Assembly (NCBI GenBank): GCA_000934385.1
Contig: KN880904.1
Span: 1 to 11,379, forward strand
Reading direction: 5' to 3'
Source: Cylindrobasidium torrendii FP15055 ss-10
Lineage: Eukaryota; Basidiomycota; Agaricomycetes; Agaricales; Physalacriaceae
Length of the DNA stretch: 11,379 nt
Under the pieces are notes generated by a model, which was not told the DNA's origin, made no database searches, and saw nothing but the letters and a program-made list of their open reading frames with translations. Positions within the stretch are counted from its first letter, which is position 1, and every line of letters begins with the position of its first letter. A program made the position numbers and the translations under genes. Below are positions 1,185 to 11,145 of this stretch, piece after piece.

Positions 1185-1983
1185 CCTCAAGCGATGTTGA
1201 CTGAGCCGTTGGCTGATGCAAGACTACCACAGTGTCGAAGCGGCCACCATCCAACGGTGAAGCCTTGACCCAATCACGCTCGTCTTTGGACTCATCGAAG
1301 CCCTCAAGGCTGAACTTGAAAGAATGCCACACATTGAGTCCCGGGAACGGAACAACATTGTGGTGGATGGCATCGCGCTGCTTCTTCTTGGCTTGTTCGA
1401 CCTCGATGGCATTTAGCCAACTGCACAAGTGAGACGGAAAATCCGGAATGCGGTGATGACGCTCAATGAGACGGATGGGTTTGTTGGCTGTTGTCGGATT
1501 TTTGGAAAGGGAGATTTGTTGTTTGTCCTGAGGAGAGGTGTTGCGCGGCACGGAAGGAGGAGATGCTGATGGAGGGAGCGCAGAAGTAGATGATGCGGTA
1601 GCAGAGGGAACAGAAGCGGTTTCTGCAGAAGGAAGAGGTGAGGTGACGCTGGTGGAGGTCTTTACGGCAGCTTTGCGCTTTTTCTCAGCACGAGCTTTAA
1701 GCTAGTCAGTACAAGAGGCAATAGTACTAAATATCATGACGCACCGCGCCGCTTCTGTAGTGCCCAAGAGACAGTGGTCAAACGATTTCATATTCTCTTG
1801 ACGGGATACCCAGACGGTCATCTGGGGAAACTCGTCTCGATGATTTGAAGCACGCCATCCCTTTTTGGCAAAGTCGATGTGAAGGCGCTCAAACATTTCA
1901 GTGTTGAAGTTGTTCGTGGTGCCAAAATAGCGGATGCTGGTAATGTAGTGTTGAAGAGAGTGGAACTTGGGTATGTTGATGTG

Positions 1984-2013
1984 TTCGCGGACCCCGAATT
2001 CGGGGTGCGTGAA
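1984..2013. repeat. Imperfect 30-bp palindrome abutting the insertion site
   Basis: The core ACCCCGAATTCGGGGT at 1991-2006 is a perfect 16-bp palindrome. It extends to 1984-2013 with 13 of 15 base pairs matching. It lies in Plavaka coding sequence, so both strands happen to read P-E-F-G-V-R-E. It ends one base before the TA duplicated by the inner element. Confidence 0.85.
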
Positions 2014-2014
2014 G

Positions 2015-2016
2015 TA
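2015..2016. other. Left copy of the TA target-site duplication
   Basis: TA directly precedes the left inverted repeat and recurs at 9941-9942 after the right one. Keeping exactly one TA when the element is removed restores the Plavaka reading frame as AAG GAT TAC TTC ACG. Keeping none, or both, would not. Confidence 0.85.
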
Positions 2017-2050
2017 CACGGCTGCACGAGAACAATTCAAAAAAACGTTT
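2017..2050 (+). repeat. Left terminal inverted repeat of the inner element
   Basis: The 34-bp left TIR starts CACGGCTGCAC and ends AAAACGTTT. It matches the reverse complement of 9907-9940 at 31 of 34 positions, with differences at TIR positions 12, 24 and 25. The first 11 bases are identical. AAACGTTT, itself a palindrome, closes the repeat and recurs once more inside the element at 2069-2076. Confidence 0.93.
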
Positions 2051-2315
2051 TGAGACCTTATTCGCCCGAAACGTTTGTGATATGAGAGAAAAAGGTTTAT
2101 TGTCAAATGAGAAATCCTAATAATTCTGCCTATATGGCCAAATGTCATATCGGGTATGACGCGTGGACCGACGCAGACATATCTATAATGATGACTAAAC
2201 ACTGCTTGTAGCGTAGACAACTCTTACATAATCACTCCCGTTATATTCTGAAACCGCGCACTGGTAATCATTTATTTGCAGCATATACTACTGGCTAGCT
2301 ACTGTGAATACCCCA
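2051..2315. other. Left subterminal non-coding region of the inner element
   Basis: This lies between the left TIR and the stop of gene B, so it includes the 3' untranslated region of gene B. No coding potential was seen. AAACGTTT recurs at 2069-2076. GATATGA at 2079-2085 has counterparts in inverted orientation near the right end (TCATATC at about 9843 and 9894), and TCATATCGG also occurs at 2145. These are candidate subterminal binding motifs only. Confidence 0.5.
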
Positions 2316-3911
2316 CTAATTAAACAGAAGATTACGGAGGCTCATCGAGCCATTTGGCCGTGCTACAGAGAAAGGAAACGTGAGTGGTGAGTCGCGACGG
2401 TGGTATCATTAACTCACCAGATGCAGACTGGTCCCCGGATAGTGTGGACGACGTGGAGGATGTACTGTTCACCGGTGCCGGACTGAGCATTGCGGGAGGC
2501 ACAATATTGCTGGGCATTGCCGTTGGCGGTGCGTGCATGCCCTGCATGGTGTTCTTGATCTTGCGCAGACCTTCATCGCGAGGGTCACGCTTCAGTTCGT
2601 GATCAAAGCGCTCTAAAAAGTATCTGGAGAGGCATCAGTTGGGGATGAATTGAATTTGAGGTGCAACCTACTCGCGCCATTCATATGACCTCTTGTCCTT
2701 GCCCCACCCGCGTGCTATCTTCTCTGCGAAGAATTTGTCGACAGCGCCAAAGAAGCGCTCTGTGAGCTCATCCTCACGAACTGGATCCGGCTGTTCACCG
2801 GCGGGCGCGGTCTCGAGGTCGTTGCGAGCACGCTTAGCTGGCGGGCGTCCAACCACACGCAAACCCTTCGAGAGGAGTGTGGGATTCTTGGAAATAACAT
2901 CGAACTAAGTGGTCATGTATTAGCGCAAACCAGCCTCCATTGGATGAAACAACTCACAAAAACTATCACATTCAGGTAATGCCCTGTGCGGATATGCATC
3001 TCCGACCCAAGCAAAGCCTTGACGATCTTGCAGGTCGTTGCGGAGACATTGAGTTGCTTAGCCTGCGCCTCTTGGAGCTAGACATAGTTTGTTCAGCGGG
3101 TAGGAAAATGAAGTACAGAAATCTCACCAAGCCACGGACGGTGCTCTTTGCCTCACTGTGGCAAATGTTCACTTGCTTTGCAAACTCGCGGCGCGTCACG
3201 ATGCTGATATTGTTGCCAAAGAATCGGGCCAGTCCATTGGTGTCGAATTGAGCTTTGAATATTTGGCTACATGCGTGGCCCAATGCCTCTTGATCAAATG
3301 CTACACGGCCGTGGTCGCCAACTGTCGCCTTGCAGACTGCACGGATTTGATCCTAATGACAATCAGCGCGAGACAAAAGACAACAAGCCCAGGACAAACT
3401 TTGTCTGCTTTCTCGAGTCTGATGGCAGCTTGTTGGTTTGTGCGAATGGCATTGAGAGCTTGAAGAATGGTATTCTGCTGTGCATGTACCTCTTTGAGTG
3501 CCTCTCCATTGGCGAGGGCAATCGTGAATGCAAGGAGAGGCGCAATGGAGGGCTCCTTGACCTCCATCTGCGAGTGGGATGAGAACCAAGAGAGCGTTCA
3601 AAGTGTGAGCGCACCGTGGCATAATTGAACAGCATATCTCGAGAGTCTTTCCCGAGGTGATACGTGTGCGAAAGGACTTGCGCGACATTGGCGCGTGTTG
3701 ACCCCAGAATGAGAAGGATCTCATTCATCTCATCTTCGTTGTGTTCCGCCTCTTCAGTAGGGCCGCTGGTCGCTGCCTGGTTAAGGCCTGGGGGTTCTGC
3801 TGTGGCTGATACCTGGAAGTCGGAGTTGCTGGGAGCCTCGGCGCCAGAGAGGTTGTCGCCGTATAGCTGAGGGTCAATGTTTGGGTCGAATTCGGGAGTT
3901 GGCGACTGCAT
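2316..3911 (-). CDS. Gene B: 427-residue element-encoded protein of unknown function
   Basis: Seven exons read 3911-3615, 3567-3400, 3352-3128, 3077-2970, 2904-2672, 2623-2418 and 2362-2316, joined by introns of 47, 47, 50, 65, 48 and 55 bp, all GT...AG. The total is 1,284 nt with no internal stop. Residues 1-70 are acidic and low-complexity. About 70-160 is predicted helical, with a Gln-rich segment (EVHAQQNTILQAL, about 125-140). About 156-266 is a compact region (AVCKATVGDHGRVAFD; then FGNNISIVTRREFAKQV). GRPPAKRAR at 285-293 is a likely nuclear localisation signal and loosely resembles an AT-hook core. About 300-370 is charged and helical, and a Pro/Ser/Thr-rich tail ends the protein. It lies downstream of gene A on the same strand, with a TATA box 52 bp before the ATG. 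I know no function; a nuclear DNA-binding accessory to the transposase is a guess. The fourth residue block (VRGLLQEAQ) weakly recalls an unnamed basidiomycete family. Confidence 0.8.
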
Positions 3912-4344
3912 GCTGGTTAAGGATGAGGTTGAGCAATTTGCACAGCGGCTAGTAGACCAGCCTTTATATCTGCGGGAAATTTCAGTGCCGAATTTCAACG
4001 AACTCGCAACCACTCTGAATGACGCAGAACGTGGTGCATATCCGACGTGACAGAAAGGGTCAAAGGACGGGAAGACGCACCCTTTGGAAGCCAACTCCAT
4101 CTGATCTCATAAATGTGTCATTGTTTCTTTGCCAGGTGGGGAGTGCGAGCATCCAGAAAAGTGAAGTCGAGATTCATGGTCGTGGTGAAAACGAAAGGTG
4201 GAAGTCGATATCGATCAACAAATGATGTGATCATTTCTGTTTGCCGAATCGCCATCCCCAGTGGCACCGATGTAGTGTTGAGTGTACCTCTGTTTCTACC
4301 GGAAAGAACACATTGAATGATATTTAGTTTAAACAATACATAAA
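3912..4344. other. Intergenic region between gene A and gene B
   Basis: The 433 bp between the stop of gene A and the start of gene B should hold the 3' untranslated region of gene A and the promoter and 5' leader of gene B. An open frame continues upstream of gene B's ATG to an ATG at 4100. That stretch overlaps the TATA box and has no protein-like character, so I treat it as leader. No other gene was seen. Confidence 0.6.
3963..3968 (-). promoter_or_regulatory. TATA box of gene B
   Basis: On the minus strand the sequence reads GATATAAAGG, with TATAAA at 3968-3963, 52 bp upstream of the ATG at 3911-3909. This spacing suits a fungal core promoter with a short leader and supports choosing the ATG at 3911 over the in-frame ATG at 4100. 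Confidence 0.55.
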
Positions 4345-7300
4345 TCACTTTCTAAGGGCTTGGCGCCTAAGGTCCACGGACTGAGCCATTGGCGTCGAAG
4401 CGGCTTGACGTTTCCGACCGACTGGCTTGTCTATTAGACTGCCCTCTTCTGCCCGACTTTGCTTGATTCCATCGAAGATACTTTTCACCGCTGTATGGAT
4501 GACATTTGAACGGACCAATGGCATGGGCGCTATGCGGAATGATGCCAGAACCTTTGCGTCCCGCATTTGTGTCGTGTTAAGAATGTATGAGTTCAGATGC
4601 GAGTGCTTAACCGTTGGCTTGCGCTTGATAGTTTCTTGTCGCTCTTCACGGACTGCGTTCCCTTCGCCCAACACACATTGGCCTTCGAAACAGTTGTGCT
4701 GAACGTTGACAGAGCAACAGATATCCTTTGTAGAGTTAAGTGGTCAAAATGAATACGACTAAGATTATAGCTCACCTGAAGGCCTACACGATTTACTGTG
4801 TTGCTGAGAACAACTGTGGGCATTCCATAAGCGCTATGCAATTGACCGACTTGCGCCAATTGGACCAAGGCCCAGTCAACTTTGTCTTCCCTTTGCATAG
4901 GCGAGTTGGACAGCTGCACAAACTCCAGAACTCGGGCTACCTGTCGTCCGTATGGGGTCTGGTAGATAATCCATCCCGAAGATAAGCAGATATCGCCATT
5001 TGAGGCAATAGCACCTGCTGAAGTCCGGCACATCCTCCCAGTGTATCCCAAGTTCTCGTGGAGAAAATAGAATGAGAGCGTCTCATGTATAGACTTGACT
5101 TTTGAGAGTTCGGATACAACTGCGCCTAAAGTACCGTTAACTTGTACACACTGCCAAAAGAGAATAGGATGCGCACCACAACGCGAGGGAACAGACGACA
5201 CAGTAGACAATGACCAGAGCTTGGGTCCAAAGTCGTCGATTTCCAAGAGTGAAAGCGGTGATACGCCCGCTGCACTCCATTGTGTGCGCGTCGTCTGCCA
5301 GACTTCATGCTCAGAAGGAGAGGTGACCCGGATATAGCCACCATGAATGAGATGTCGAACACGACTTGCGCGTGCCATTCGACTCGCAATGTCCTTTGAT
5401 GGTGCCGAGCGAGGGCTGTGAACACTGGCTGCTCGGATGATCGCGTTGAACGATTCAAATCCCTCGGTTGCAAAGAGTATAGCTGGCCCAAAGCGAACAA
5501 CATGGGTAGGGAGGTGAAGGAGGACATGGAACTTTGGCTTGTTAAACCACTGGGGCGAAAGACGGCAGACACAGTTGAGGAAATGGTCAATTGCTGCCTC
5601 AAGCTGTTCCTGTGTAGTTATTCATGAATTCACACGGCTAGTGCGCAATGAGAAGTACCTACAATGTGACTGGTTATATTGGGTATCTCAGGCTGCCAGA
5701 GAAGAGCGGCAAGATGTCCGAGGGCAGTCCAGACTTCGATGTTCTCTGATGGCATCAAATCGTATAGAACAAAGGGCGCGACTTGGGCAATTTTGCGGAA
5801 ATCTCCGCCTTGGAGTGACCCGGCATATGTAACAAGAGTTTCTCCTCGAAGTTTGTCGACACCAAGACCCGAGATATCAAGGCTATCAAGCCGCGTCTTC
5901 AGGACATGTAGACGATTGTCTTTTGCCGTTTTGAGACGAGCAACTGCGTCGCGCCATAGATACTTAACATATCCAAGCAAAACAACATGCAGTATCTCAA
6001 CCGGTGTATCAGTGTGGGGATTGAAGTCTGGATTGTAAGCGGTTAGTACAACAAATAGAACCCAATGTTAAGAAGCGTATACCTTTGATTCGCCATACTG
6101 GGCTGAGGGTAAAATCATCGGGTAATGATTTCTTGTACTCGTCTACATTCCTTTGCCTCTGAGCTGGAGAGACTTTCTTCTGCCGAATCAAACTTAACAT
6201 CTTTTCAATAAAGTAGTGTTGAAATGTGTCCTTTGTTCCAGTCGCAGTTCTCTCTTGCTTCCAACGGCTTATTCCACCAATGGTAGACGCTGTACTGAAC
6301 TGTGAGCGTAGCTCTTCCTTGGTTGCAGCCGGTGTACGATGCTCGTGGTTCTGTGAATTTCAGGACACCCAAAAGAATTGTCGCAGAAAATCTGAACGCA
6401 CCGCTGTCATAAAGTTGGTAATACGATTCACCATTTCTCCCATTGTCTCACCGTTCTTCTTGCCTTTTCGAGGACGTGTAGTTCCAGGAGAAGACGGTCT
6501 ACTCTGGTCAGACGTGTGTGATGCCGCATCCGAGTCGTTGCCAGTTCCCGGCGCCGTGTCCCCATAGTCTGGCTCCTCTTCCTCGTCGCCCAATCCAGAC
6601 ACCTTACACACCCGACAGAATAGCCGGCCTGTAAATCCTATATGGCACGCAAATTCACTCTGCATGGGATTGTCTCCGGTCATCGCCAAGACAAAGGGAA
6701 GAACAAGGATAGGCTCATGATACTGAGCGTCCCATGCCCAAATTCCATTGTTCTGACCATCCCTAATATCTCATTCAGTTTCGAGTGATTAGCTGATGAA
6801 ATTACACACTCTAGTTGTTCAACGACACCATCAAGCATTTCCAGCGGAGGAGCAATGTTTGATGTGCAGAGAAAATGAATATTTGACTCTTTGTGAACTT
6901 CGCGACGTGGGAGCCCTGCCGCAGTGAAAAGAAACGAGTTATGCTTGTTCCAGCGCTTTGACATATTGCCCGATGTGTCGTCGCAGTACAACCAAATAGG
7001 GAATGATACAACACGGCGACCTTTCGCACGCGCGCGCCATACATTGAAACCGTCAGTAGTTGCAACGGTCCAAGGCTGCACAGAGTCGTTCTGACGGATG
7101 CCTAAAGTGATTTAACGCCTTAGACATACTATGCAAACCTCTGGCAACATTTGCTTACCATTAATCATTCGTGGGTCAGGCAGCCCGTGACTTGAATGAA
7201 TCTTCACAAGGTCAGGCATGGGAAAGAGAAGGTCGTGAGCAGCGACATCAAGAGGGAAAGCGCCTTCGATAATCCAGCCATCTGTTTCTGCAGACATCAA

Positions 7301-9653
7301 AAAGCCGGAGCAGTAGAACTGGTTTTGTCGTCGAAACCAACGGATTGGCATGAAAACTTGGCCGTCCTTAAGCATTGTGGGCTCGTGGACGTAATATTGA
7401 TGTCCTGAGTTAGGCTCAACTATCATTTGTGTGGCCAGAGAAGGGTCGAGCTCCTCGCTCCATCGACGGCCATGCCATGCTTCCGAGACAGCACCACCTA
7501 GATCCTCTGGAAAGAAATGCAAATTGCGTCGAACCCGCGGATTCGACATTTCCTGGGACGTTGTGAGCCATGAAACGGAAGAAAACATTGGCTTCCAATG
7601 AAGCACCTGTGAAATTATACCACCAAGACTGTTCATGTAGTAAACATGCCCGAGCTTCCCACGATACATTGTCGTCGAAATGCCACACACTTCTTGAAGA
7701 GCGCGGTCAATGTCATCCATTTGGCGATCCGAGGGAAGGTTCCGAATACCAAGACACTTCATTGCCCAGTGGATGGCCGAATTGGACTTACGCGAGAATG
7801 CGCATCGAGGAATATGACGGAGGATATCAAGGACACATGTCTGTCCTTTGGTGAGCACTGAGTATATACGGTAGTGGTTTCACGGACCTGCTTGTCAGGC
7901 CATGGAAACCACTCGTTCTCGGCATTGGTGGTCACAGAGCGACGGGTCCGCACATTATCAACTGAAAGTGCTTTTGTGAGCTATCAATTTCTCGCATGGC
8001 GCGTGTATATTACGTACGCACAATGGCCGCCAGGCTTTCCCGATCATTGAGAGATGCCTCGCTGGCGGATGACCGGTCACTTGCCTCGTAACCATCCTCG
8101 TCTTCGGAGGAAGGGCATATGTCCTCACACAGATAGCGCTCCAGGTCTCGTGCCAGGTTTTCCATTACCAGCGAAGGACTGTCAATATCCATGGAGTCGC
8201 TCCCGGGTGATGGACTTCGTTCATCAGACTCAGCGTGAGTAAAGAGTGGGAAGTCATCAGGGCTGAATGTGTTCATATTGGGATAAGCCATGGGTGGTTG
8301 GGGCACATGATGCGGTGAGACTGAAACCCCGGAAAGGATACGACCAAGGGCACCCCGTAACTCGATGCTGCGATGCTCGGAATTGCTTCCTCCATGAGTT
8401 GAGCTTGTACCCGAAGCAACGCGTGGCTCTTTCTCCCAAAACGAAACACGCTCTTGATGCTTCCGAGTATTCTCGTGCCGTTTTATCTTGTAAGATGAGT
8501 GTTTTTCATCGCACGGACGACATCGAAAGTATCCTGATGGGCACGGCTCCCAGACTTCGAAGAGTTGATCAATTCGGAGCCATATATTGACAGACAATGC
8601 TCTTACCATCAGGACGACTTGAAGGAAAACTACCTGATGCAGCACTGAAGCTCGAGTTGTATGCATACTCGGGACGTGGCTCTTATTTGAACTGTGTCAA
8701 ACAAAGGACATAACCAGCTGCATTTACTCACGAGATGCAGACTGGCGCTCTGGTGCTCCGCCCCGAACTCGAAGGCGGACACCAACTACACTGAGATGAC
8801 CAATACCCAGCTCATGAAGTCGTTGATGAGATGCAAGCGGAGCCAGAGTTGCCTTTGGGTAGATGTAATAATGTTCAAAACGACGAGAACGGGGTATAAG
8901 GCCACGGTGAAGGAGAATACGTTCAATGCAATCGATTGATGCGTTGTGCGGGATGTCTAAATGTAATGTTAGCTTGCATGCCTATCACATACAAGATCTC
9001 CTACGCTTGAGCATACATGTCCGGCGAGAATATGGAAGATCAATCAGAAGTGTAAGCGTGCTTTCGATAGGTGTACGGCAAGGCATCATTGTGTTTAATG
9101 TCACTTGTGTTGTGCCAAGATAAGCCGCTGGTAGATTTGAGAAGAAAATCAATGTGCAATCGATATTTACACTTACACTTGAAAATGCGATAGCATGCTA
9201 GTACAAAAACAACCAACCCTACGCTCTCGACAGCTCGGTCGAAAGCAATGGCCACAAGTGGCCCGAAGCTCCGTGACACAACAGATAGAAGATGTGCGGC
9301 AGTGGTTCGAAGGTGCAGTGTGAGTGAGAATATGGCAGAACATGTAAATCCGCGCTTGAATGAGTGCAACCAAGCCACACGTTCGGCATGTTCCAACAGC
9401 TTGACCGATTTGGCATACTTTCGAAGGCATTGATGGCGTCGAATACGGGCAATGTGCCGCTGGAATGCAGAAAGATTTGAAGCCTTCCATACTTTACGGT
9501 GCTTGAAGAAATGCACACGAGATTGCCAGATGGAAGGGCTAATGGCATGTAGAACTAGATATTATTTAATTCGCCTTAACGCTGCCGAACCACAATAGAC
9601 TTACAAATGAGGATCGGGACAGCGACAGCTAGAAAGCATAGGATAGCATCCAT
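4345..9653 (-). CDS. Gene A: large DDE-type transposase with ubiquitin-like domain and U1-type zinc finger
   Basis: Fifteen exons: 9653-9605, 9554-9177, 9127-9017, 8956-8732, 8681-8607, 8554-8018, 7961-7888, 7840-7607, 7552-7159, 7101-6810, 6762-6402, 6350-6083, 6027-5663, 5609-4776, 4725-4345. All introns are GT...AG, 47-60 bp. The total is 4,578 nt (1,525 residues), open throughout. A shorter start at 9089 gives 1,370 residues in the same frame. Domains in the long numbering: a hydrophobic N-terminus; a ubiquitin-like domain (about 164-246) ending RLRVRGG; a U1-type zinc finger C291-C294-H306-H312; an acidic Ser-rich linker (330-450); WFPWPDKQTCVLDIL (about 478-492). The core has WLYCDDTSGN (D733/D734), TGDNPMQSE (D820), TPVEILHVVLLGY, KPKFHVLLHLP and FATEGFESFN (E1170/E1173), probably the D-D-E triad. 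A Cys/His cluster (VNVQHNCFEGQC) lies near the C-terminus. It presumably cuts and joins the element ends in the nucleus. The core matches unnamed multi-exon proteins I recall from Agaricomycetes. Confidence 0.85.
8732..9089 (-). other. Ubiquitin-like domain segment of gene A (with intron 9016-8957)
   Basis: This marks the exons coding for the ubiquitin-like part. An ATG pair at 9089-9084 is followed by a hydrophobic strand (TLTLLIDL), a second strand (RRTYIP), a helix (SIDCIERILLHRGLIP), a strand with YYIYP, and a last strand leading into VRLRVRGG, followed by APERQSAS. Length, strand order and the RLRxRGG end match ubiquitin-fold domains. The intron is 60 bp with a GTATGC donor, a GCTAAC branch site and a TTTAG acceptor. 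If 9089 is the true start, this domain is the very N-terminus, as in ubiquitin-fusion precursors. Confidence 0.65.
9177..9653 (-). other. Optional 5' exons of gene A (hydrophobic N-terminal extension) or separate leader
   Basis: Two exons (9653-9605 and 9554-9177) are joined by a 50-bp intron (GTAAGT...TCTAG). A 49-bp intron (GTAAGT...CCAG, 9176-9128) then links them in frame to the ubiquitin-like segment. They encode about 142 residues: a hydrophobic start (DAILCFLAVAVPILIF), a basic middle (RHIARIRRHQCLRKYAKS) and a second hydrophobic stretch (SVGLVVFVLACYRIF). The consensus splice sites and continuous frame argue that it is translated. Against this, all three minus-strand frames are open across about 9220-9490, and membrane segments are odd in a transposase. 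It may be a transcribed leader or an independent small membrane protein. Confidence 0.4.
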
Positions 9654-9906
9654 ACTGCAAGGACGTGCGCCAAGGTAGTAGTCAAACAAGCGCCGTGTCG
9701 GTGCGCTGCGCCACTAAGTTTAACTATGACGATTTTCGAGTTCGATCTCTTTGAGATCGAACTCGAAATTCGTCATTGTCACCTGATGCCTTTCCACGTG
9801 GATCGGAAAGGTTTTCTGCGCATTTGAATAATTGTTGTCTGCTCATATCGAGCAAGAACGATTATCTTTAATAAGGTATCTAACTACAAAATATCATATC
9901 GGATCG
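9654..9906. other. Right subterminal region and likely promoter of gene A
   Basis: No gene lies between the first possible ATG of gene A and the right TIR. The region contains a strong hairpin (9726-9776), two TCATATCG copies (9843 and 9894) that mirror a motif near the left end, and no clear TATA box. It should hold the gene A promoter and the right-end transposase-binding sequence. Confidence 0.5.
9726..9776. repeat. Long perfect-class hairpin in the right subterminal region
   Basis: Two 24-bp arms (9726-9749 and 9753-9776) are reverse complements with one mismatch, separated by a TTT loop. The inner 15 bp (TTCGAGTTCGATCTC) match perfectly. It contains repeated TCGA words. It could be a cruciform, a dimeric protein-binding site or a structured RNA leader element of gene A. 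Confidence 0.88.
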
Positions 9907-9940
9907 AAACGTTTTCCTGAATTGTTCTTGTGCAGCCGTG
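9907..9940 (-). repeat. Right terminal inverted repeat of the inner element
   Basis: Read on the minus strand from 9940, it begins CACGGCTGCAC and ends AAAACGTTT. It pairs with 2017-2050 at 31 of 34 positions. Plavaka coding sequence resumes immediately outside the following TA. Confidence 0.93.
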
Positions 9941-9942
9941 TA
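9941..9942. other. Right copy of the TA target-site duplication
   Basis: TA directly follows the right TIR and matches the TA at 2015-2016. On the minus strand it completes AAG GAT TA, the end of the Plavaka 5' half, which continues as C TTC ACG at 2014. Confidence 0.85.
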
Positions 9943-11145
9943 ATCCTTGTTTGCGTGCCACAAGGCTAGGGCGTCCTCCATGTATTGTAAGGTGTCATCG
10001 TCGTGGGTCGAATACTGGGCCAGGTAGATGAAGTCGAGGACGGCTCGGCAAGCGGTCACAGCGCGGTCATCGAGGATGTCGGCAATACAGCCTAGCAAGA
10101 TCTTCCCCATGTTCTTGCGTTCTGTCCCACTGATCTGGGACAGAGCAGTGATGCCGTTCTTGAAATGTCGCAAGCCCAGCCCCGGTGGTAGGCGATGTAT
10201 GCGACGATCCAGCTCAGCCTCTGTCATGAGCTCCTGGCACCATGCGATGAGATGACGGAGGACCCCTTGATACAGCTGGTGAAGAACATCTGGTGTTGTT
10301 GAGAGATGGATGTCGGTATATGGGAGGTTCTCCCAGAAGGGTTTCGAAACGTTGCCGTTGACGTCTTTGGCTTTACAAGCTTTCGAATAAGCGGAAGTGG
10401 ATGTTGTGGTTGCACGAGCTTCGTTCATAACGGATTTGGTCCATTCTGGAGTGCGATTGGGATACAAGTCGGAATCCTGTAGGTGGTCGGGGGGGCAAGT
10501 GCATTTCGGGCAGGAGCCATACTTGCTGCAAGTGATGAGGCACTGCTCTGGGTAGTCGGCGACATAGGCCGCCAGAATGGGATGTACAACGCGAGTCTTG
10601 CCGTCGCCGCCGGTGATGGTAACACCATCCTTGCCAGCCTTGATGAGCGGCTCAACGAGAACACGCATAGCAGTGTGGAACAGACGCTGGTAGCGTGCTC
10701 CCATGGATGGTTTGGATAGGTTCCCACGAGATAACTTGTCGACGGGAAGATAGGCCAAGAGGATGCATGCCTGTTGGGAGGGCTTACGGCGGAGAGAGTT
10801 TGGTATGTTCCCAAGAGTCAGATAGACGGGATAAGCCTGCTTGCTTCCCGAAAACTGCGTGAGCTGCGTTTTGTCGGTAGCAATGATGAGGGGAGCGAGA
10901 GTGTGCCCTTTGGGGAGCATATCCTTCACGAAAGTTAGCAAAGGAATGTCACAAACAAATACCACGCACCTGAATGTACCACCACCACTTTCCTGTCCAC
11001 ATCTCATTGTAGAACCGTGCTCCCTTATCGCTCCCCTCCTCCGTAGGCTGATGGAACATCTTCTTCGGCTTGTAAACAAGATGTTCAGCAAGCTGGGGAT
11101 CGCCCAGTAGACTCTCGACTGCTTCTAAGATGTCACGATGATGCG
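9943..11145 (-). pseudogene. Plavaka transposase, 5' half (DDE core), severed by insertion
   Basis: Two exons, 11145-10970 and 10923-9943, are split by a 46-bp intron (10969-10924; GTGCGT donor, GCTAAC branch site, GAAG acceptor). The first contains RDILEAVESLLGDPQLAEHL and MWTGKWWWYIQ. The second has the Plavaka core: PLIIATDKTQLTQFSGSKQ (first catalytic Asp), YPVYLTLGNIPNSLRRKPS, AAYVADYPEQCLITC followed by a Cys cluster (second Asp region), TPDVLHQLYQGVLRHLIAW, and the RRLPPG...FKNGI...SGTERKNM block. It breaks off after ALALWHANKD, where the inner element begins. The few extra codons before the next stop (about 9880) come from the TIR and are not part of the family. This part has no frameshift or stop. 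The 5' end beyond 11145 is not recognisable. Confidence 0.92.

Follow-up and report, generated by a model that had tools for sequence, protein, structure and literature searches.

The window analyzed here (11,379 nucleotides) is the whole of contig C470 in the 29.3-Mb assembly of Cylindrobasidium torrendii FP15055 ss-10. It contains a DNA transposon of 7,924 bp (positions 2017 to 9940) that splits a Plavaka transposase gene. As an earlier, sequence-only reading of this DNA had proposed, the element carries a large transposase-like gene and a second gene. The insertion is defined by the following features.

2015..2016, no strand: left target duplication TA, from the sequence and from the single TA in an uninterrupted paralog on contig C379
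2017..2053, plus strand: left terminal inverted repeat (TIR), starting CACGGCTGCAC, with 33/37 matches to the right end
9904..9940, plus strand: right TIR, ending GTGCAGCCGTG, pairing with the left end at 33/37
9941..9942, no strand: right target duplication TA, from the sequence and the joined-flank alignment
9941..11124, minus strand: upstream part of the host gene, Plavaka transposase (PF18759, E 1.4e-84 for open reading frame [ORF] 9880-11124)
1702..2016, minus strand: downstream part of the host gene, Plavaka HxxxH and Glu region, from the joined-flank translation; the 3' limit of the exon is not exact

The TIRs are imperfect, with mismatches at positions 12, 24, 25, and 35 when 37 bases at each end of the element are compared. 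The outer 11 bp (CACGGCTGCAC) of both are identical, and the element ends read CACGG..CCGTG. No other inverted repeat in the window is as long as this pair, and about 2e-8 pairs this good are expected in the window by chance under a simple model of 25% per base. The C379 Plavaka paralog is uninterrupted: the match of the left flank ends at its position 5896 and that of the right flank begins at 5895, the two-base overlap (5895-5896) being the duplicated TA. When the flanks are joined with one TA, 540 of the 676 columns aligned with C379 are identical, with one TA at the junction, and the reading frame is restored (...LWHANKDYFTHPEFGVREH... against ...LWHANKDYFTHSEYGVREH... in C379). The empty site and the restored frame therefore confirm the insertion to the base, and the sequence-only reading was right about a complete element with 34-bp TIRs (31/34 over that length), its TA duplication, its nesting in a Plavaka gene, and the frame that a single TA restores. 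Alignment across the junction covered 10 distinct places with Plavaka paralogs, leaving out further partial matches on C281, C296, C68, and C194, and the insert is absent from all 10. The dinucleotide at the junction point is TA in 5 of these 10 places and another in the remaining 5. Within the host gene, the insertion point falls between the first part of the Plavaka transposase and its HxxxH/Glu region.

Downstream of the Plavaka core and on the same strand, a DUF6830 match (PF20722, E 7.5e-6) covers 1177-1701 and is perhaps a later exon of the host gene. Near both element ends, TCATATCGG occurs in direct orientation (2145-2153 and 9894-9902), and AAACGTTT palindromes lie within and adjoining the TIRs; these repeats and palindromes are possible binding sites. 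A longer palindrome is also present.

9723..9779, no strand: near-perfect subterminal palindrome with 27-nt arms (93%), z score -9.1 when folded as single-stranded DNA

It is 85-87% like one on contig C301, which carries three long near-perfect hairpins in a row (4564-4634, 4658-4716, and 4746-4801, with arms of 33, 29, and 25 nt).

With GT-AG introns removed, the large gene reads as a single open frame that runs on the minus strand as far as 4345. Its product has a ubiquitin-like domain, a Gly-Gly, a zinc finger, a DDE core, and a BAH-like domain, in that order.

4345..9653, minus strand: transposase gene; the spliced frame is open throughout and the N-terminal exons are backed by homology
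9653-9605, 9554-9177, 9127-9017, 8956-8732, ~8644-8018, 7961-7888, 7840-7159, minus strand: transposase exons of the present model
7101-6810, 6762-6402, 6350-6083, 6027-5663, 5609-4776, 4725-4345, minus strand: transposase exons of the present model, continued
9541..9647, minus strand: N-terminal hydrophobic segment AILCFLAVAVPILIFLHAI, Kyte-Doolittle 2.74 over 19 residues, split by intron 9604-9555 (first 13 residues placed at 9647-9609, the remainder by exon limits)
9202..9258, minus strand: second hydrophobic segment LVAIAFDRAVESVGLVVFV, Kyte-Doolittle 1.87, weak and containing charged residues
8757..9062, minus strand: ubiquitin-like domain ending in RLRVRGG, with intron 9016-8957, from the profile and the fold of homolog P0040
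8457..8531, minus strand: zinc-finger-like motif C..C...HE....H, from the alignment with homologs
6654..6994, minus strand: first and second catalytic Asp regions, CDDTSGN within 6994-6965 and GDNPMQS within 6680-6654, with intron 6809-6763 between them
6606..6620, minus strand: C(2)C motif FCRVC, in 36/36 aligned sequences
5445..5534, minus strand: H(3)H motif and catalytic Glu (KFHVLLH ... FATEGFESFN), aligned to Plavaka HxxxH...FER
4690..5003, minus strand: core of the C-terminal BAH-like domain, with intron 4775-4726; limits approximate

The annotated protein, P0001 (CYLTODRAFT_495162), has 1,141 amino acids and starts at a later Met inside this longer model. It lacks two short stretches (inside 7840-7159 and 5609-4776) that are read as introns, and homologs also lack the first of them. 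The start near 9653 comes from longer homologs, with exons 9653-9605, 9554-9177, 9127-9017, and 8956-8732 joining in frame. By this comparison, the gene extends farther upstream than annotated, and ORF 9040-9561 is assigned to its N terminus because of frame and homology.

The catalytic residues of the transposase are well conserved. Namely, D366, D367, D453, C472, C475, H782, and H786 are kept in 36 of 36 aligned sequences and E806 in 35 of 36, and the CMCT motif set, as the passages on it in PMC12730594 define it, is present. A family sequence profile had no matches in the PDB, and fold comparison was therefore used: the predicted model of the catalytic core (predicted local distance difference test [pLDDT] score 80.5, predicted template modeling score 0.81) matches the RAG1/Transib fold. 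The C-terminal domain is BAH-like by its fold. On this predicted structure, the large gene encodes a RAG1/Transib-fold, EnSpm-like (CMCT) transposase.

The N-terminal part resembles ubiquitin both in sequence and in predicted structure. An N-terminal profile built from an alignment of 14 proteins matched 327 distinct PDB sequences at an E of ≤1. The best 60 of these 327 are ubiquitin, polyubiquitin, ubiquitin fusions or variants, and ISG15, most of them aligned through the terminal Gly-Gly; the top scores stem from polyubiquitin repeats, single ubiquitin standing at about 1e-5. The model of homolog P0040 has an overall pLDDT of only 58.8, with block means of 69-85 in the ubiquitin-like domain, and its 21 PDB matches at an E of ≤0.001 comprise 20 ubiquitin chains and one RAG1. 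Against most single-ubiquitin chains, the P0040 domain reaches target TM-scores of 0.81-0.86 over about 80 columns. In the sequence profile and in the predicted P0040 fold alike, a beta-grasp fold is aligned to ubiquitin through its terminal Gly-Gly.

The 13 long homologs had partly been chosen for Gly-Gly (10 by a pattern requiring it and 3, P0028, P0033, and P0082, by hydrophobic segments); therefore, proteins held out of profile building provide the fair test. Searched with a profile lacking the Gly-Gly columns, 19 of 125 family proteins showed the domain at an E of ≤1e-13 (the 126 proteins scanned include P0121, the product of the second gene), and Gly-Gly came next in 19/19. Six of the 19 had been held out, all with Gly-Gly; five are independent, held-out P0122 being close to P0033 from the same species. 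P0045 (partial, E 1.8, also with Gly-Gly), P0066, and P0081 were excluded from the count. A profile built without the window finds the larger ubiquitin-like exon in the window (E 4.2e-13, one open frame, Gly-Gly next), so that Gly-Gly follows the domain in all 20 cases found, the 19 family proteins and the window. The residue after it is Ala in 13, Ser in 4, and Gly, Met, and Ile in 1 each, never Pro, and the residues ahead of it vary (LLGG, LRGG, RRGG, VPGG, LCGG). The domain is absent from most homologs' gene models, through truncation or loss.

Ahead of the ubiquitin-like domain, 2-3 hydrophobic segments occur in 11 of 12 sequences, the window included, and one in P0126. A segment here means 19 residues above Kyte-Doolittle 1.6, counted only where at least 97 residues precede the domain; P0046 (54 residues before the domain, no segment) was excluded, and 7 further domain-bearing proteins lay outside this run. 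For ten sequences, shuffles of the same composition reach an equal number of segments in 0-24 of 200 trials.

We also looked for further copies with the same ends, which the sequence-only reading had envisaged. The TIR pattern (≤3 mismatches) has 4 matches in the assembly, 2 of them the element's own ends, against 1 for a backward control, and a full-length DNA search returned, apart from the palindrome, nothing but pieces 200 and 109 bp long and 76% identical. Neither search yielded a second copy in the element's own assembly. Contigs C27, C16, and C432 carry distant relatives of the transposase, with 33-58% identity depending on the piece. Of 13 pieces listed, 5 are stop-free, and because the search ignores introns, stops in a piece do not show decay. 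The stretches examined on these contigs (9.9, 9.9, and 5.5 kb, respectively) contain no TA-flanked CA..TG inverted ends; when the C27 stretch was shuffled 20 times, a single weak pair turned up in each of 2 shuffles. The ubiquitin-like profile found nothing convincing in the three stretches. A search for relatives in viral and prokaryotic contigs gave 20 and 76 pattern matches, respectively, none of them confirmed. The family is widespread in mushrooms, with 446 homologs in total. Among the 120 listed, none has a precomputed Pfam domain, and most are named “hypothetical protein,” with some UniRef entries named “Transposase,” which bears out the earlier description of the core as known from unnamed basidiomycete proteins.

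The second gene encodes an orphan protein.

2316..4100, minus strand: second gene, P0121 (CYLTODRAFT_447627, 457 amino acids); ends approximate, from translations

A protein search finds only P0121 itself, and in its own genome a single match, at an E of 0.13, was found apart from its exons. The best E values against Pfam and the PDB (0.099 and 1.3) are not meaningful. EnSpm-like elements usually carry a helper for end binding. Outside the element, the right end of the contig (11136-11379) has matches on six other contigs, full-length at 93-98% on four and partial on two; three of these six match at their first few hundred bases. It is a young repeat that may have broken the assembly.

Taken together, the element is probably a TA-duplicating, cut-and-paste DNA transposon that is autonomous and belongs to the CMCT clade (EnSpm/Plavaka/Transib/RAG1). 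As in RAG1/Transib, the core should cut the element's ends and join them to target DNA. We propose that the transposase is made as a precursor with an N-terminal ubiquitin-like domain and that a host deubiquitinase-type protease would cut after the Gly-Gly, freeing the zinc finger-DDE-BAH part, which would start with Ala (Ala or Ser in most relatives). The freed transposase would bind the terminal repeats, cut like RAG1/Transib, and insert at TA, and the BAH-like domain would steer it to marked chromatin. Because long models have a hydrophobic part ahead of the ubiquitin-like domain, the precursor might be held at a membrane until cut.

These steps differ in probability. Cleavage after the Gly-Gly could go either way, and for chromatin targeting by the BAH-like domain we likewise see about even prospects. 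A membrane hold before cleavage appears unlikely. Two results weigh against the proposal: shuffles reach the observed number of hydrophobic segments in 52 of 200 trials for P0024 and 65 of 200 for the window, and the gene model is weakest near 8731-8645, where several joins to the zinc-finger exon keep the frame. Given the shuffle results, N-terminal membrane anchoring of the precursor can therefore only be suggested, more strongly for the family than for the copy in the window. The full scenario, a widespread agaricomycete RAG1-like lineage with a membrane-held precursor, deubiquitinase release to the nucleus, and BAH-directed insertion in the role of the RAG2 PHD, is less likely still; if it were true, the ubiquitin system would switch transposition.

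The strongest alternative, only slightly short of an even prospect, is that the element is an ordinary ESTA member in a mushroom and that its extra domains play no special role, being mere lineage baggage. Kojima 2025 (PMC12730594, December 2025) named ESTA for EnSpm-like, TA-duplicating elements from rust fungi, and the passages concerned place ESTA, Plavaka, EnSpm, Transib, and others in CMCT. The TA duplication, the CA..TG ends, the fungal host, the CMCT motifs (C(2)C and H(3-4)H), and the RAG1-like transposase all agree with that description. Yet the ESTA passages concern rust fungi, where the three described families carry TET/JBP genes, and no TET/JBP match was found with Pfam among the 10 ORFs scanned in the window. 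The same passages make no mention of a ubiquitin-like or BAH domain, whereas the element has both, and a Gly-Gly kept in every domain found argues for a role. The element fits the ESTA features compared and may belong there, a likeness drawn by description and with a weak EnSpm alignment. Thus, of the “unnamed TA-duplicating family” suggested earlier, the TA duplication stands, whereas “unnamed” may no longer hold since ESTA was named in 2025.

Somewhat less probable is a ubiquitin-like domain that serves as an uncut docking module (e.g., Cdc48, proteasome shuttles) and whose Gly-Gly is structural. Many uncut ubiquitin-like domains exist, and the variable residues before the Gly-Gly would suit this explanation. 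However, such domains rarely keep an internal Gly-Gly, and here it is present in 20/20 and never followed by Pro. It is quite improbable that the N-terminal exons form a separate small gene fused to the transposase by gene prediction. The annotated P0001 does start downstream of them, and near 8731-8645 other joins are possible too, but the ubiquitin-like domain, HE....H, and core stand in one protein in 13 aligned homologs from several genera, the C..C part lies ahead of HE....H in 12 of these 13, and all these parts are inside the terminal repeats here. Finally, a chance repeat pair in unrelated DNA or a non-mobile gene insertion, in whose favor only the single copy speaks, is refuted for practical purposes by the exact empty site, in company with the TA duplication, the inverted ends, and the intact RAG1-like transposase.

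The features that set the element apart, its RAG1-like fold, its ubiquitin-like domain with Gly-Gly, and its BAH-like domain, were missed by the sequence-only reading. The exact ends, target duplication, empty site, and fuller gene model let the family behind the mushroom “hypothetical protein” entries be annotated. Moreover, the ubiquitin-like domain with its kept Gly-Gly hints at ubiquitin-type cleavage as a means of transposase control, and the fused BAH-like domain hints at chromatin-directed insertion by a RAG1-like enzyme.

How does the element compare with the other known groups? It resembles Plavaka in its CMCT motifs (hhalign E 1.7e-5 over the HxxxH...E of the insert's transposase), and PlavakaA also makes 2-bp duplications according to the passages on it in PMC12730594. 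Yet the Plavaka model PF18759 has no match in P0001 (E up to 10) or in 8 insert ORFs (E up to 1), and the Plavaka ends given there are TGT..ACA (A) or CATCA..TGATG (B), against CACGG..CCGTG here. Plavaka membership of the insert, one of the comparisons proposed earlier, thus fails on ends and Pfam. The other, KDZ (Kyakuja-Dileera-Zisupton), was dropped because of duplication length, 7-8 bp in the same passages against 2 bp here; no KDZ model occurs among the Pfam matches of the window ORFs, P0001, and homologs, duplication length being the only other point compared.

With EnSpm/CACTA, the element shares CAC..GTG ends, and the region from the second catalytic Asp to C(2)C aligns weakly. PF02992 (Transposase_21) has no match in P0001 and matches 2 of 36 homologs (best E 0.0015). 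Alignments by hhalign with two further EnSpm-like ORFs are weaker (E 0.0044 and 0.018, probability 8% and 3%), and Plavaka against an EnSpm ORF gives an E of 0.49. EnSpm/CACTA proper fails as a placement, with a 3-bp duplication there (PMC12730594, in the passages available) against the 2-bp TA here. Contigs C261 and C336 have the same EnSpm-like match at 2233-2463 and the same 948-aa frame and are perhaps duplicated contigs.

The N-terminal part recalls the ubiquitin-eS31 and ubiquitin-eL40 precursors, both among the PDB matches, in having a ubiquitin fold, a Gly-Gly, and then a second protein part. It differs from them in its identity to ubiquitin of only about 21-27% (P0040 model), in the varying residues before the Gly-Gly, and in having a transposase as the fusion partner. 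By title or abstract opening, in a search with most subscription journals outside its coverage, we found, among the papers listed, no description of a ubiquitin-like/Gly-Gly and BAH-like fusion to such a transposase; the fusion of both domains to a RAG1-like transposase is new in this sense.

The closest structural likeness is to Transib, ProtoRAG, and RAG1, in the predicted fold of the catalytic core. Transib and ProtoRAG make 5-bp duplications, whereas the element duplicates TA and its transposase has a ubiquitin-like domain and a zinc finger at the N terminus. The partner of RAG1 is a histone reader, the PHD of RAG2, and no RAG2-like gene was seen in the element. In the RAG1 system, the reader is a separate protein; here, a BAH-like domain is fused to the transposase itself.
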